Below, in pieces: positions 5,959 to 19,056 of a stretch of 23,138 nucleotides of DNA; within the stretch, counting starts at the first letter, position 1, and every line of letters begins with the position of its first letter. The stretch lies in the IMG/VR virus record IMGVR_UViG_3300032954_000069, positions 1-23,138 of that record. The stretch is one strand, 5' to 3'. The position numbers were made by a program, and so were the translations under genes. A model generated the notes under the pieces. That model saw only the letters and a list, made by a program, of their open reading frames with translations, ran no database searches and was not told the DNA's origin. This DNA comes from a virus.

Positions 5959-6165
5959 CTACCTCCGGCGTCGGCGCTGCGGGGACTTCACGGCCTGCTC
6001 CGGCACCAGCCGGGTAGCCGTGGCCGTCAGGGGCTCAGACAGGATCTCCCCGGCGCCACGTTCACAGACCCGGGCCGCCAGCTCGGGCTCCAGCTCCGTG
6101 ATGTCGCCGGGGAGATAGGTGGTGCCGTCCGGTGCTGGGAACGGAGTCCAGAACCGGACGCGCAT
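5959..6165 (-). CDS. Small conserved head-region protein, unknown function
   Basis: This 68-residue protein (MRVRFWTPFPAPDGTTYLPG) has a short strand-turn start, an acidic helix (ELEPELAARVCERGAGEILS) and a strongly basic C-terminus ending in six arginines after a Gln. The F-x-x-G-x-x-Y-x-x-G-D-x-x-x-L-x-x-x-x-A-x-x-x-x-x-x-G-A-x-E pattern is seen in many tiny phage proteins next to head-tail connector genes. I know no established function. It overlaps the upstream stop in TGATG and lies four bases before the connector, so it is co-translated with the head completion genes. Confidence 0.75.
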   Translation of the reverse strand: MRVRFWTPFPAPDGTTYLPGDITELEPELAARVCERGAGEILSEPLTATATRLVPEQAVKSPQRRRRR

Positions 6166-6709: not shown

Positions 6710-8059
6710 TCAGTTGAACAGCAGCCGGACGAAGGCCTCACCGAGGACCGGCGCGGCATCCGTCTCCGCGCGGACGATGAAGCCCACCTGCCCGGTCTCG
6801 GCATACAGCTCATCGAGGCGCTGGATCCGCACGTCCAGGGCATCCACGATGTGGTAGTAGTTGAAGTCCCCGATCAGGCCCGCGTAGACGCCGGCGCCCG
6901 GAGTGGTGTTGCTCGGGGCGAACTCGTCCTCGACGTAGGGCTGCCCGAGGATGGTGGAGGGCTGCCCCAGCGCCAGCCCGGGCTGCCACAGGTAGGCGAT
7001 CGGGGAGCTGGTCTTCAGCTGCCGGATCTTGCCCAGGAAGGTCGGGTGCAGGTGCCACCGTGCCCGTGCCCGGTACACCGGACGGAGCGTGAAGAAGGCC
7101 GCGATCACCTTGTCCGGATCCAGCGCCGAGCTGGTCACGGTGCTCACGTCCTGGGTGGAGGGGATGCCGTTGGCATCCGCCGTGTAGAGGCCGAGGGGCT
7201 TGTTGTTGCCGTCCCCGGTGTTGAAGGCCTTGGACTGGGCCAGGGCCACGATGTAGGCGAGCCGGTCACGGACGATGGACTCCGCGCCGAGGGGCGAGGC
7301 CCGCAGCAGCTTCTCACTCACCTTGATGCGCTTCGCCAGCGGGTTGGGCCGCATCTCCCGCTTGCCGAAGGCCAGCGTGCTGTCCTCGTTCCCCGTGCCC
7401 AGCTCCACCGTCCAGTCCGCATCGGCAGGCATGGTCTGGATGGTCGGGATGCCGAGGGACTGGGCCTGGGCCACCGTGTATTTCGTGGACAGGCCCCGGA
7501 TCACCATCTCTTCGTCCAGGCGCTTGATCAGCGTCATGACGAAGTCCTCCAGGGGCACCGTGTAGCCACCCTGGCTGTTGGTGCCCATGCTCATGGCACG
7601 CCGTTCCTCCGGCGTGAGGCTGGCGAACCCGGCCTGCAGCCAGCGCCGGAACGCGTCCCGGTACTCCGGCGTGGCGAGGTCCGCCTTCAGGTGATCCACG
7701 CGCCCCAGCGCCACGTCAGCCAGGATGCTGGAGGCCTGGTCCAGGCGGGGCGTGCCGTTCCACCGGCCCCGGAACTCCTTGATCCGGGTGTCCCGCACCT
7801 CCAGGGCCTTCTTCTTGCCTTCCTCCGTGCTGGGATCCAGGCGGTCCACCGGCGTCCGGGCGGGCTCAGCCAGCGCCAGCTCCCGGCGCTCCTGGTCCTC
7901 CGTCATCCGGATCTCCCGCTCCGTGGCGGAGATGTCCTTCTCGATCTTGTCCAGCGCCGCGTTCTGCTCTGCGCTGCGCTTCTCCGGAGCGATGTCCAGC
8001 AGCTCCCGCATCGCATGGGTCTGCTCGCCGAGCTTCTGCCGGAGTTCCTTGCTTTTCAT
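6710..8059 (-). CDS. Major capsid protein, HK97 fold
   Basis: This 449-residue protein has two parts. Residues 1 to about 75 are charged and helical (MKSKELRQKLGEQTHAMREL, then NAALDKIEKDISATEREIRM), the coiled-coil delta domain that acts as a scaffold and is usually removed by the prohead protease. The mature shell domain starts near 157 (MGTNSQGGYTVPLEDFVMTL) and includes WTVELGTGNEDSTLAFGKRE, AKRIKVSEKLLRASPLGAES, a nucleotide of the usual G-L pattern (FNTGDGNNKPLGLYTADANG), and ARWHLHPTFLGKIRQLKTSS before the final VGFIVRAETDAAPVLGEAFV. These are standard HK97-fold capsid landmarks. GGAGG lies seven bases before the ATG. It is preceded by a dedicated promoter and a structured leader and followed by a strong stem, consistent with separate high expression. 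Confidence 0.95.
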   Translation of the reverse strand: MKSKELRQKLGEQTHAMRELLDIAPEKRSAEQNAALDKIEKDISATEREIRMTEDQERRELALAEPARTPVDRLDPSTEEGKKKALEVRDTRIKEFRGRWNGTPRLDQASSILADVALGRVDHLKADLATPEYRDAFRRWLQAGFASLTPEERRAMSMGTNSQGGYTVPLEDFVMTLIKRLDEEMVIRGLSTKYTVAQAQSLGIPTIQTMPADADWTVELGTGNEDSTLAFGKREMRPNPLAKRIKVSEKLLRASPLGAESIVRDRLAYIVALAQSKAFNTGDGNNKPLGLYTADANGIPSTQDVSTVTSSALDPDKVIAAFFTLRPVYRARARWHLHPTFLGKIRQLKTSSPIAYLWQPGLALGQPSTILGQPYVEDEFAPSNTTPGAGVYAGLIGDFNYYHIVDALDVRIQRLDELYAETGQVGFIVRAETDAAPVLGEAFVRLLFN

Positions 8060-8092
8060 GGTGAGGCCTCCTCAAAGGTCCCAGAACGCGAA

Positions 8093-8165
8093 GCACCCGG
8101 GAAACGACGGGAAGGAGCTGCTGAGGCGAGGGCTCAGCACGTCCTTCCAGTGATCTCCCGGGTGC
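8093..8165 (-). promoter_or_regulatory. Long structured RNA leader (inverted repeat) of the capsid gene
   Basis: The 73-base stretch between the putative promoter and the capsid ribosome site is an imperfect inverted repeat. Outer arm: ten perfect pairs (8156-8165 with 8093-8102). Then a symmetrical seven-by-seven internal loop with some possible pairs, seven perfect pairs (8142-8148 with 8110-8116), a two-by-two mismatch, seven perfect pairs (8133-8139 with 8119-8125) and a seven-base loop (8126-8132). That is at least 24 Watson-Crick pairs. The base of the stem is 33 bases upstream of the ATG, leaving GGAGG free. Likely roles are mRNA 5' stabilisation, RNase III processing or translational control. 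No U-run follows, so a simple terminator is less likely. Confidence 0.7.
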
Positions 8166-8239
8166 CAGTGTGCGCGGCGTGCCTCAGTGGGCAGGTGCGC
8201 TTCCATCACGGGCGGCGCGGTCACTTCATCATGGGCAGC

Positions 8240-8269
8240 ACGGTAGGGGCAGCACCGGCCTTCTGTCAA
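8240..8269 (-). promoter_or_regulatory. Putative promoter for the capsid/tail block
   Basis: The minus strand has a perfect TTGACA (8264-8269), an 18-base spacer and TACCGT (8240-8245). It lies directly after a terminator-like stem and about 180 bases before the capsid ATG. The spacer contains GCCGGTGCTG, which also occurs between the boxes of the promoter at 18123-18152, so the match is unlikely to be chance. Confidence 0.65.
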
Positions 8270-8275
8270 GCGAAT

Positions 8276-8304
8276 GGCCCCCAGCCGAAGGGGCACTGGG
8301 GGCC
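8276..8304 (-). terminator. Terminator-like hairpin upstream of the capsid promoter
   Basis: A perfect nine-pair stem (8296-8304 with 8276-8284) with an eleven-base loop stands between the protease gene and the capsid promoter. It is very GC-rich but is followed by ATTCG rather than a U-run; the -35 box begins six bases later. With the hairpin at 8332-8349 it would insulate the packaging block from the capsid block. Confidence 0.55.
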
Positions 8305-8331
8305 TCAAACGAAGTCGAAAAACCGGACATG

Positions 8332-8349
8332 GGGCCAGAAAACTGGCCC
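8332..8349 (-). terminator. Terminator hairpin after the prohead protease
   Basis: Twelve bases past the protease stop the minus strand folds GGGCCAG against CTGGCCC around a TTTT loop: seven perfect GC-rich pairs. About eight bases later comes a TTTTT run. This is the first of two tandem stems in the gap and is a plausible stop point for the packaging transcript. Confidence 0.6.
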
Positions 8350-8360
8350 AGGCACTGGAC

Positions 8361-9371
8361 TTATGCGACGGGTGCCCCGCCGACGATGCGCTCAGCCCGG
8401 CGCAGCAGCCGGAGCCGGTCTTCATCGCTCCGACCGGCCAGGGGCAGCATCCGGCTGATCTTCTCCAGCTGCTGCCGGACCTCCTGGGCCAGGTCCATCT
8501 TGATGGTGCCGCCCTCAGCCTGCACGATGGCCGCCACCAGGAGGCTGAGATCCACCCCAGCCTGCACGGAGGCGACATCCAGAAGGCTGCGCTTCTCTGC
8601 CGTGGCCTCCGGATAGGCCGGGAATGTCACCGGGCTCACGTCACTCAGCCGGGCCTCCACCAGGGAGCGCAGCGGCAGGCCGTCGGAGGCCGTGCCTTCC
8701 CAGTTGTCCCGCACCTTCTCGAAGCCGAAGCTGGTGCCGCTCACGTCACCCCGCTCCACGCGGCGTGCGAAGTGGGTGTGCATGGGATCTTCCCCGTCCA
8801 GCTGCACCTTCCCCTCCAGCGCGTCATCGTTGCTCCGGAGCTGGAGGGTTTTGTTGGCCGTGCGGCCCAGCACCCACTCCGGCTGGTGGTTCCAGAGGCT
8901 CACGATGTCCTGCTCCTTCATCGTCTTGGCGAAGGCCCCGGGCCGGACCACTTCCCGGAACCCGCCCATGGACTCCGACTCCGAGTTGTAGGGCACGCTC
9001 ATGTGGATCTGCGGCCCCTGGTCCGTGCGCCGAAGCTCGATGTGGGCCGGGATCACCCGCAGCTCATGACGGGGGAGGCTGGCCCGCAGTTCTTCCAGGC
9101 TCCGGTCCAGCGAGCGCGCATATTCCTTCTCGAAGTTCTCCGTGTTGATCCCGAAGGACTTCGCTTTGTTGGCGATCTTCTTCGCGACGGCCTTCTTCTC
9201 ACTGGCCGGGATGCCCTCCGTCTGGTTGAACCGGGACATCGCATCCTGGGCATGAGCCTCATCATGGATGGGCAGGTGCCAGGTGCTGGTGTCCTCCGGG
9301 TCCCCGACATAGGCGAAGGCACTGGCGGGCAGCTCCTTCCCGCCGACGGACTTCGTCTTACTCTTGGCCAC
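8361..9371 (-). CDS. Prohead protease with N-terminal DUF6582-like domain
   Basis: I place the start at GTG 9371 (VAKSKTKSVGGKELPASAFA), with AAGGAG nine bases upstream and a 14-base overlap with the portal gene, giving 336 residues. Residues about 12-90 (LPASAFAYVGDPEDTSTWHL, then PIHDEAHAQDAMSRFNQTEG) form a separate alpha module that I recognise as DUF6582-like. The HK97 gp4-type serine protease domain follows at about 110-255: FREVVRPGAFAKTM, SLWNHQPEWVLGRT with the likely catalytic His162, GDVSGTSFGF with the likely catalytic Ser214, and RLSDVSPVTFPAYPEA. It would mature the capsid by removing the delta domain. The last 80 residues are helical and may aid co-assembly. Being between portal and capsid is the standard position. 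Confidence 0.92.
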   Translation of the reverse strand: MAKSKTKSVGGKELPASAFAYVGDPEDTSTWHLPIHDEAHAQDAMSRFNQTEGIPASEKKAVAKKIANKAKSFGINTENFEKEYARSLDRSLEELRASLPRHELRVIPAHIELRRTDQGPQIHMSVPYNSESESMGGFREVVRPGAFAKTMKEQDIVSLWNHQPEWVLGRTANKTLQLRSNDDALEGKVQLDGEDPMHTHFARRVERGDVSGTSFGFEKVRDNWEGTASDGLPLRSLVEARLSDVSPVTFPAYPEATAEKRSLLDVASVQAGVDLSLLVAAIVQAEGGTIKMDLAQEVRQQLEKISRMLPLAGRSDEDRLRLLRRAERIVGGAPVA

Positions 9372-10611
9372 TTTGCGGCGCTCCTTCCGGCTTGGGCACA
9401 TCCGGCCCCGTGATGGGGACCAGGGTGGAGAGGATGCGATGCACGTCGCCACCCTCGATGGGATTGAGATCTTCCAGCTCCAGCACATCGTTCTGCGAAA
9501 AGACGCCGTTCTGGATCATGCCCTGGTAGAAGGCCAGCCGGGCCGCCGAGTCCCCGCGCAGCAGGCTGTTCATCCGGAACTTGAAGTAAGTGGAGCTGGC
9601 ATCCTTGAAGCCCAGCAGCATCTTGCGCAGCCGCTGCTCCCAGCGCACTGCCCACGGCATCATGGTATAGGTCACGAACTCGATGCCCTGCTGCTCAATG
9701 TTGCTGAACGTGCCCCGGGTCAGATCATACAGCAGATGGGGCGGGATCCGGAGGATCCGGGACGCCTCCACGACCTGGAACTGCCGCGTCCCCAGGAACT
9801 GGGCCTTTTCCGGATCCACGCTGGTCTGGTGCCAGGTCATCCCTTCTTCCAGGATCATGACCCGGTGTGCCCGGGAGATCCCGGCCACCTGGTTCTCCTT
9901 CTGCTTGCGCAGCCGCTCCTGGGCTTCTTCCGTCAGCTGGGCCGGATGCGTGATCACCCCTCCGGCATTCGCGCCCTGGCCGAAGAACAGGGCCCCGAAC
10001 AGCTCCGTCGCGAGCCCCAGGCCGATGGTTTCCCGGAACGTCTGCGTCATCCGGTCCCCCATCAGGCCGTACCGGGTGAAGCCCCGGATGTGCAGCACCT
10101 CATCGGCAGGCAGCAGGACGGAGGTGGCCGCCATGCCGTAGGGCTCACGCGGCAGCCCGATGCGATAGATGAGGTTCATGGCCCCATCCCGGAAGACCGT
10201 GACCCGATCCGGGCTGAGGGGCCACAATTCGATGGGGATCCCGCCCTTATTCCGGATGATCTGCGCGTACCCATTGCCCCACCAGAGGGCGTGGGACTGG
10301 AGCATCTCCTTGAACTCGAAGGCCGTCTGCTCCGGATTGGGGTCATCCAGCACCCGGGCTGCCGGATGGTTGTCCAGGATGTCCCGGCCCCGGTCCCGAC
10401 GACGGCAGACATCCACGGGCAGCATCCCGATGGTCTCCGCGATCAGCCGGATCCCGCAGCTGAGGGCAGGCCAGGAGATCGCGGTGCGCTCCGAGACATC
10501 CACTCCGGCCGCTGCCGGACGGACCCCGAACAGTTCCGCGAGGGCCGGATCCCGGGGATGCAGCGGGCCGATCAGCTGGTCACGGCGCTCCTGGAAGAAG
10601 CGGGTCAGCAT
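9358..10611 (-). CDS. Portal protein, HK97 family
   Basis: This 417-residue protein forms the dodecameric DNA entry ring. Landmarks are ISWPALSCGIRLIAETIGML followed by PVDVCRR, HPAARVLDDPNPEQTAFEFK, ALWWGNGYAQIIRNKGGIPI with ELWPLSPDRVTV, EVLHIRGFTRYGLMG, and in the C-terminal half EASRILRIPPHLLYDLTRGT followed by FSNIEQQGIEFVTYTMMPWA and RWEQRLRKMLL. These are consecutive conserved segments of the HK97 portal family, and the length is usual. GGAGG lies nine bases before the ATG. The gene follows a small membrane protein gene and overlaps the protease by 14 bases. Confidence 0.95.
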   Translation of the reverse strand: MLTRFFQERRDQLIGPLHPRDPALAELFGVRPAAAGVDVSERTAISWPALSCGIRLIAETIGMLPVDVCRRRDRGRDILDNHPAARVLDDPNPEQTAFEFKEMLQSHALWWGNGYAQIIRNKGGIPIELWPLSPDRVTVFRDGAMNLIYRIGLPREPYGMAATSVLLPADEVLHIRGFTRYGLMGDRMTQTFRETIGLGLATELFGALFFGQGANAGGVITHPAQLTEEAQERLRKQKENQVAGISRAHRVMILEEGMTWHQTSVDPEKAQFLGTRQFQVVEASRILRIPPHLLYDLTRGTFSNIEQQGIEFVTYTMMPWAVRWEQRLRKMLLGFKDASSTYFKFRMNSLLRGDSAARLAFYQGMIQNGVFSQNDVLELEDLNPIEGGDVHRILSTLVPITGPDVPKPEGAPQSGQE

Positions 10612-18162: not shown

Positions 18163-19056
18163 TCAGGCGGCACACCGGCAAGTGGCGGGAGTGGGCTGAT
18201 AACCTGGAGGAACGATGGGACGGGTGCAGCTGGGGCAGAGGCGGCACAGCACCATCCGGTACGGATCCGTGGCCGGGATCTGGGCATCAGGCCGGAGCTG
18301 CAGCCGGTTGCGGGTGAAGCCTGAGTAGTCCACCTGGTGCTGCCAGCGGCCCCACTTCCAGGTGATGGTGGTAATGTCCGGATGCTGGTCCCGCAGAGAC
18401 TCGGCCATCTTCAGGCGTCCATCTCCCGCGTAGAGTTCATCCGTGTTGCCGCCCTTCAGCACCATCGTCGTGACCTTCTTCGCGAGGAAGGCCTGAAAGA
18501 GGATCGTGCACCAGCCGTCCTTGAGCGCACGCAGGGACAGATCTGTGTCTTCATTGTAGCGTCCCCGCCAGCGATAGGGCAGGTCATTCTGAATCAGGAT
18601 GCAGGAGTAGATCCGGGTGTTGAGCCGGAACGGCTCATGCGCATCCCAGCGTGGGGCGAAGGACTCATACTGGAAACCGGCCAGCGCGACGTTGGTGTAG
18701 CGGTCCACATAGTCTTCGGCGGCCCGGAAGATGGTGCCGTCCCCAACCTGGATCTTGGAGTTCCGGTGCATGCGGTAGAAGCCCTGGATGTTGTCATCCA
18801 GGATCCAGTGCCGGGCTGCGCCGGAGTTGAGGGCATGCTCCCAGATCCAGTTGCGGGCCGGGATGGAGCCCTGCCCTAGGTTGCTGAACGGCAGCACCAG
18901 CACCTGGTCAGCCGGGATCACGGCAGAATAGGCCGCAGCCTCCTGGGGTTCCACCACGATGTGGAAGGGGACCTGCATGCGCTGGAGGTAGCGGGCCGTG
19001 ATCCGGGTGTCCCAGCGGCCCTTGCTCACGATGTAGACGGGATAGGCCGGGTTCAC
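18163..19056 (-). CDS. TET-associated family glycosyltransferase with Cys-rich tail
   Basis: The start is a GTG overlapping the previous stop in GTGA; 297 residues. The segments PVYIVSKGRWDTRITARYL, VVEPQEAAAYSAVI, VLPFSNLGQGSIPARNWIWE, HWILDDNIQGFYRM, IFRAAEDYVDRYTNVALAGF, LNTRIYSCILIQNDLPYRWR and GRYNEDTDLSLRALKDGWCT, then KGGNTDELY and WGRWQHQVDYSGFTRNRL, match the phage family described as TET-associated glycosyltransferase. The DD pair at 87-88 and NED at 168-170 are likely nucleotide-sugar and metal sites of a GT-A fold. Such enzymes add sugars to 5-hydroxymethylcytosine made by phage TET/JBP oxygenases. An extra C-terminus (CRLCPSC, later CRC, residues 271-295) could bind zinc. No methyltransferase or TET gene is visible in the window. 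Confidence 0.88.
   Translation of the reverse strand: MNPAYPVYIVSKGRWDTRITARYLQRMQVPFHIVVEPQEAAAYSAVIPADQVLVLPFSNLGQGSIPARNWIWEHALNSGAARHWILDDNIQGFYRMHRNSKIQVGDGTIFRAAEDYVDRYTNVALAGFQYESFAPRWDAHEPFRLNTRIYSCILIQNDLPYRWRGRYNEDTDLSLRALKDGWCTILFQAFLAKKVTTMVLKGGNTDELYAGDGRLKMAESLRDQHPDITTITWKWGRWQHQVDYSGFTRNRLQLRPDAQIPATDPYRMVLCRLCPSCTRPIVPPGYQPTPATCRCAA

Follow-up and report, generated by a model that had tools for sequence, protein, structure and literature searches.

A conserved folded leader RNA ahead of the capsid gene in a clade of environmental phages

The long hairpin that precedes the capsid gene in the window, a 23.1-kb genome fragment from IMG/VR (23,138 nt), is, as judged by comparison of related sequences, one part of a conserved folded leader RNA. 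The same architecture, a small hairpin (P2) followed by a long one (P3), lies directly 5' of the capsid gene in the window and in 11 other IMG/VR phages. Sequence comparison establishes this architecture and its covariation, as well as where it lies and that it is confined to one capsid clade. Since paired mutations preserve the shape across the phage group, the leader almost certainly controls capsid production, by a mechanism that we infer below. The explanation we tentatively favour is that P3 is the distal element of a cis-acting leader with a dedicated sigma-70-type promoter, which would control the entry of polymerase into the capsid operon.

The protease and capsid genes of the window are separated by a gap of 301 nt, in which the minus strand carries, in order, a promoter, P2, P3, a fairly U-rich tail, and the Shine-Dalgarno sequence of the capsid gene (Table 1). 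A further hairpin, P1, is found in most leaders of the family and is weak in the window. The predicted promoter (TTGACA-N18-TACCGT) is sigma-70-like, with a score of 9/12 that none of 200 dinucleotide shuffles reached. It would place the transcription start near position 8233, giving a predicted leader of about 174 nt. Two hairpins that follow the protease stop and precede the promoter possibly insulate the capsid unit, and a short stem at 8360-8346, overlapping the one nearer the protease stop, was terminator-like in our scan.

Table 1. Features of the protease-capsid junction in the window, in the order of transcription.
Feature	Position	Strand	Evidence or remark
Prohead protease gene (S78), upstream of the capsid gene	8361..9488	-	PF04586, E 4.1e-33
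Hairpin GGGCCAGTTTTCTGGCCC, just past the protease stop	8330..8347	-	folding
GC-rich hairpin GGCCCCCAGTGCCCCTTCGGCTGGGGGCC, between protease stop and promoter	8275..8303	-	folding
-35 element TTGACA, predicted capsid promoter	8264..8269	-	consensus score
-10 element TACCGT	8240..8245	-	consensus score
P2 hairpin	8172..8200	-	conserved in 12 phages; stems covary
P3, long hairpin	8093..8165	-	fold z -7.2; basal stem GCACCCGGGA/TCCCGGGTGC; pairing conserved
Tail after P3, TTCGCGTTCT	8083..8092	-	5 U of 10; weak U-rich tract in terminator position
Shine-Dalgarno GAGGAGG, capsid gene	8067..8073	-	read from sequence
Major capsid protein gene, HK97 fold	6710..8059	-	PF05065, E 8.8e-52; phrog_10

The original prediction described a single hairpin with arms of 10, 7, and 7 perfect pairs and symmetrical internal loops, ending 33 nt before the capsid start. 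Folding of minus-strand positions 8165-8093 gave the same arms, and the spacing between the end of P3 and the capsid ATG at 8059 is indeed 33 nt. The minimum free energy is -51.7 kcal/mol, compared with -25.1 +/- 3.7 kcal/mol for shuffled sequences (z -7.2), and none of 200 dinucleotide shuffles was equally stable. The basal arm has 10 perfect pairs, or 13 with a GAT/GTT extension. Above it follow a 1x1 mismatch, 2 bp, a 1x1 U.C mismatch, the 7 bp of GGAAGGA/TCCTTCC, a 2x2 internal loop, the 7 bp of TGCTGAG/CTCAGCA, and the terminal loop. P3 is the top and longest inverted repeat found in the window, and the most extreme of 2305 80-nt segments scanned on the coding strand (z -7.0). Larger regions also fold better than shuffled sequence, with z -3.7 for the 181 nt at 8060-8240, the region singled out in the original prediction, and z -4.2 for the full 301-nt intergenic region.

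Relatives were collected with the large terminase of the window, which led to 80 related contigs, and with two capsid-alignment scans, which added more; a direct search of viral contigs with the capsid as query found no relative. The close capsid relatives all have a non-coding gap ahead of the capsid gene, with a long hairpin at its end. Once duplicates were removed, the carriers of the leader were the window, L006, L086, L089, L091, L092, L093, L094, L010, L016, L187, and L191. Statistical power is limited by this number of 12 leaders, three of which (L010, L016, and L086) are close to each other in sequence. In the capsid tree, the carriers group in a single clade (support 100/100), which also takes in duplicate loci from the same records; the 9 label changes on this tree come solely from duplicate loci that were left unlabelled. 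The P2-P3 element was not found in any sampled sequence outside this clade, and phages with the same capsid fold outside it are without the RNA. Searches of 400 Chloroflexota genomes and of 8 host genomes with capsid relatives returned no copy of the leader, a result that is uninformative on the phage host. The exact pattern of the outer arm had no match in viral contigs, because the sequence of the stem varies. Pattern matches in L182 and L183 were rejected as capsid leaders: they resemble coding sequence and are due to chance.

The folds of the individual leaders converge on a common structure. In all members, the 5' strand of the P2 outer stem is followed by an invariant ACC; next come an inner stem, which encloses 2-6 nt of variable loop, and a 3' loop whose last two bases are an invariant CC, before the other strand completes the outer stem. 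In the window these are GCGC/GCGC for the outer stem, ACC (8196-8194) for the 5' loop, TGCC/GGCA for the inner stem, and CGCC (8179-8176) for the 3' loop. A linker of 4-6 nt joins P2 to P3, whose base pairs GCACC[C/T]G with C[G/A]GGTG[C/T] in nearly all members. Covariation was tested on an 11-sequence MAFFT alignment (A5), where 97.8% of the pair cells are standard pairs, against 82.0% when shuffled, and 11 of the 17 pairs show two-sided (compensatory) changes, against 5.5 when shuffled. The covariation score is 0.536, compared with 0.209 for shuffled alignments (0/500), and falls to at most 0.10 when the strands are slid by 1-3 columns. The basal stem of P3 is 98% paired across the 11 phages, with two-sided changes in 4 of its 9 pairs. 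RNAalifold predicted the same helices when no structure was supplied. The changes in loop length are not multiples of three, which argues against a protein-coding explanation.

As we had chosen the boundaries of the alignment ourselves, a covariance model (R3) was built without the window, from seven phages, leaving out also the group of L010, L016, L086, and L094. This model finds the window leader with 44.5 bits and a rough E-value of 8e-7 in 118 kb. Its top five matches are the five held-out leaders, the window first and L010, L016, L086, and L094 after it. The full model (R2) gives one strong match per record, always ahead of the capsid gene (12/12 members). An earlier model from three phages (R1) was too narrow, scoring the window at 17 bits, below false matches. 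The view that this DNA is a structured leader of the capsid mRNA and not idle is strongly supported by its own predicted promoter, clade-wide conservation, and paired substitutions. The latter are present in the related phages, the opposite of the outcome that the original prediction had named as counting against it. Its single hairpin stands as P3, but at least one more conserved element, P2, precedes it and had been missed.

How would such a leader act? Transcription would start at the dedicated sigma-70-type promoter and run through the leader. P3 would serve as a transcription-attenuator or pause hairpin, a derivative of an intrinsic terminator between promoter and capsid gene. P2, with P1 where present, may be the part of the leader that is recognised and that determines the frequency with which polymerase passes P3, whether through a bound phage or host factor or through a direct effect on polymerase. 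Over the roles suggested in the original prediction, namely protection of the mRNA 5' end, an RNase III site, or a translational sensor of capsid level, we favour such control of elongation or termination because of the U-rich tails of P3 and the plain terminators at the same place in distant relatives. The first 10 nt past P3 are on average 44% U in the family, a figure made slightly uncertain by the L187 tail, which is shortened by a misplaced start, against about 15% in these genomes. Six members pass the terminator criterion (L094, L093, L006, L092, L088/L089, and L187). In the distant relatives L248/L250 (U8), L234 (UUUUUAUUUU), and L008 (U5), a plain intrinsic terminator separates the capsid gene from a possible promoter. 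A terminator-like hairpin lies no farther than 150 nt from the start in 31% of 118 non-redundant capsid loci, compared with 2-9% at the starts of the terL, portal, and protease genes, and this difference also favours control of transcription elongation.

Several observations stand against attenuation. At about 30 bp, P3 is longer and more conserved in sequence than a simple terminator requires. The terminator scan did not accept the tail of the window, which has 4-5 U in 8-10 nt, and the tails of L010, L016, L086, and L091 are likewise poor. Good promoters lie 209-210 nt ahead of the capsid start in L006, L092, and L089, whereas a simple consensus measure detects weak promoters or none in L093, L094, and L191. 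Because the U-tract of the window is poor, RNase III processing, 5'-end stabilisation, and translational control have to be weighed as alternatives.

The alternative that survives best, although we consider it unlikely, is that P3 is a processing site for RNase III or a similar enzyme, a stabiliser of the 5' end, or both, with no regulated termination. Processing would separate a low-copy portal and protease message from a high-copy capsid message and protect the latter. The T7-type RNase III sites lie between phage genes and are long, imperfectly paired hairpins that contain internal loops, and P3 resembles them in all these respects. Its length, its symmetrical 1x1 and 2x2 internal loops, and its place 33 nt before the start, with the Shine-Dalgarno sequence left uncovered, are compatible with such a site, and the poor U-tract of several members fits as well. 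However, this would leave unexplained the conserved P2 with its invariant ACC/CC loop, the sequence conservation at the base of P3, the U-rich tails, and the plain terminators of the relatives. To our knowledge, the T7-type sites have neither a second conserved hairpin nor an adjacent U-rich tail.

Slightly lower in our ranking, and rather doubtful, is translational control, with the leader as an operator for the capsid protein, the protease, or another phage protein that alters ribosome access. The sequence-conserved internal loop of P2 would suit recognition by a protein, and capsid is presumably the gene whose dosage matters most. In L092, L089, and L006 an extra covarying inverted repeat between P3 and the capsid start (CATGATCGAGCC / GGCTTTTCGATCATG in L092) includes the AUG and sequesters it by pairing, and this speaks for a degree of translational input in these three phages. 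Yet this start-codon hairpin is absent in the window and several other members, the start region of the window is largely accessible (mean unpaired probability of 0.69 around the ATG), and the phages of the same capsid fold outside the clade do without the RNA. Two other likenesses were examined and rejected: in the window the apical CCUC loop of P3 can pair with the Shine-Dalgarno sequence of the capsid gene, but by inspection this pairing is not conserved, and the resemblance of the L010-type P2 (CACCUCCU) to the 16S anti-Shine-Dalgarno sequence is not shared by other members.

A further reading, which we regard as improbable, is that P2 with its ACC/CC loop and the long P3 make up an RNA-only switch of the capsid operon, either toggling between two structures or acting on the host RNA polymerase in the manner of put. 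The sequence GCACC[C/T] is common to the 5' side of P2 and the 5' base of P3, and both copies are complementary to the 3' strand of P3. The third pairing of GCACC can form in 98.5% of cells, with a concerted change in L010 and L016 among them. It has no covariation support, its positions being mostly invariant.

There is little to recommend a separate small RNA, made of the promoter and P1-P2-P3, ending at P3 and acting in trans: it would have its own promoter, a length of 130-190 nt, and a terminator-like hairpin at its end, but every occurrence of the element lies immediately 5' of the capsid gene, with one per record, and many of the tails are poor terminators. Least credible of all is that P3 is just a constitutive or decaying terminator that separates two transcription units and regulates nothing, since, common as terminator-like hairpins are ahead of the capsid genes of relatives, P3 lies downstream of the predicted promoter, where constitutive termination would shut off the capsid gene, and P2 is independently conserved with covariation.

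Many capsid genes outside the clade, among them those of L109, L110, L104, and L098, have a plain terminator about 20-80 nt from the capsid start, in a short gap after the protease gene. Such terminators are odd for a highly expressed capsid gene unless antitermination operates. The leaders of L231, L212, L250, and L008, which are more distant relatives, share the sequence CGAGTAG, found in 4 of 123 non-redundant upstream regions where 1.3 were expected, and in three of the four it lies 136-148 nt ahead of the capsid start. This is a weak hint of another leader motif.

The window has other features of interest. A second very strong hairpin lies at a gene start (17334-17262, minus strand), with -68.2 kcal/mol and z -7.9 for 17345-17250. 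The in-frame ATG of the downstream gene is within its 3' arm, and the hairpin may be either an early coding segment or a leader that sequesters the start codon. Another strong hairpin (6118-6039, minus strand; z -6.4, arms of 15 nt) is in or overlaps a small open frame (5959-6165) between head genes. At 18163-19056 (minus strand) there is a gene for a TET-associated glycosyltransferase (PF20691, E 2e-49), which suggests that the DNA of the window phage has hypermodified bases.

No Rfam family matched the leader of the window or 14 related loci at the gathering threshold, and the low-threshold matches to miRNA and snoRNA families were dismissed as chance. The literature searched, consisting of open-licence papers, held no description of such a leader. 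We rate it as a new motif of structured RNA that Rfam lacks and whose general kind, the cis-acting phage leader RNA, is known. In the late control of lambdoid phages, a terminator separates the late genes from their promoter, and Q enables polymerase to read through it (phage 21 PR'/tR', PMC6606751). The favoured layout would resemble the pR'-tR' regions of lambda and 21, with a promoter, a short untranslated leader, a terminator hairpin, and late genes. However, lambdoid Q acts from a DNA site in the promoter, whereas the element conserved here is an RNA structure downstream of it, so that the signal would be carried by RNA. Another parallel is the putRNA of HK022, an RNA of about 70 nt with two stem-loops and bulges; it follows a phage promoter, and it both binds polymerase and counters termination (PMC9378689). 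P2 with its neighbours is comparable to it in size and place, and has a similar two-hairpin arrangement, the likeness being one of layout alone. The putRNA stem-loops bind the beta' zinc-binding domain of RNA polymerase. A difference is that put serves early operons and suppresses distant terminators. We regard both parallels as analogies of function and claim no membership in either system. The Mu-gpT-DE RNA motif is another structured RNA at phage capsid genes, those of the Mu type. It belongs to a different phage group and lies on the other side of the gene, downstream of it.

Phages must make far more capsid protein than portal or protease, and it is often unclear how those with linked head genes do so. 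With an RNA element that the whole clade has exactly at the protease-capsid junction, the question can be tested on a small, portable sequence, and the new motif comes from phages known only from environmental sequence. If the RNA-only switch of P2 and P3 were true, it would represent a new class of phage RNA element that times capsid synthesis.
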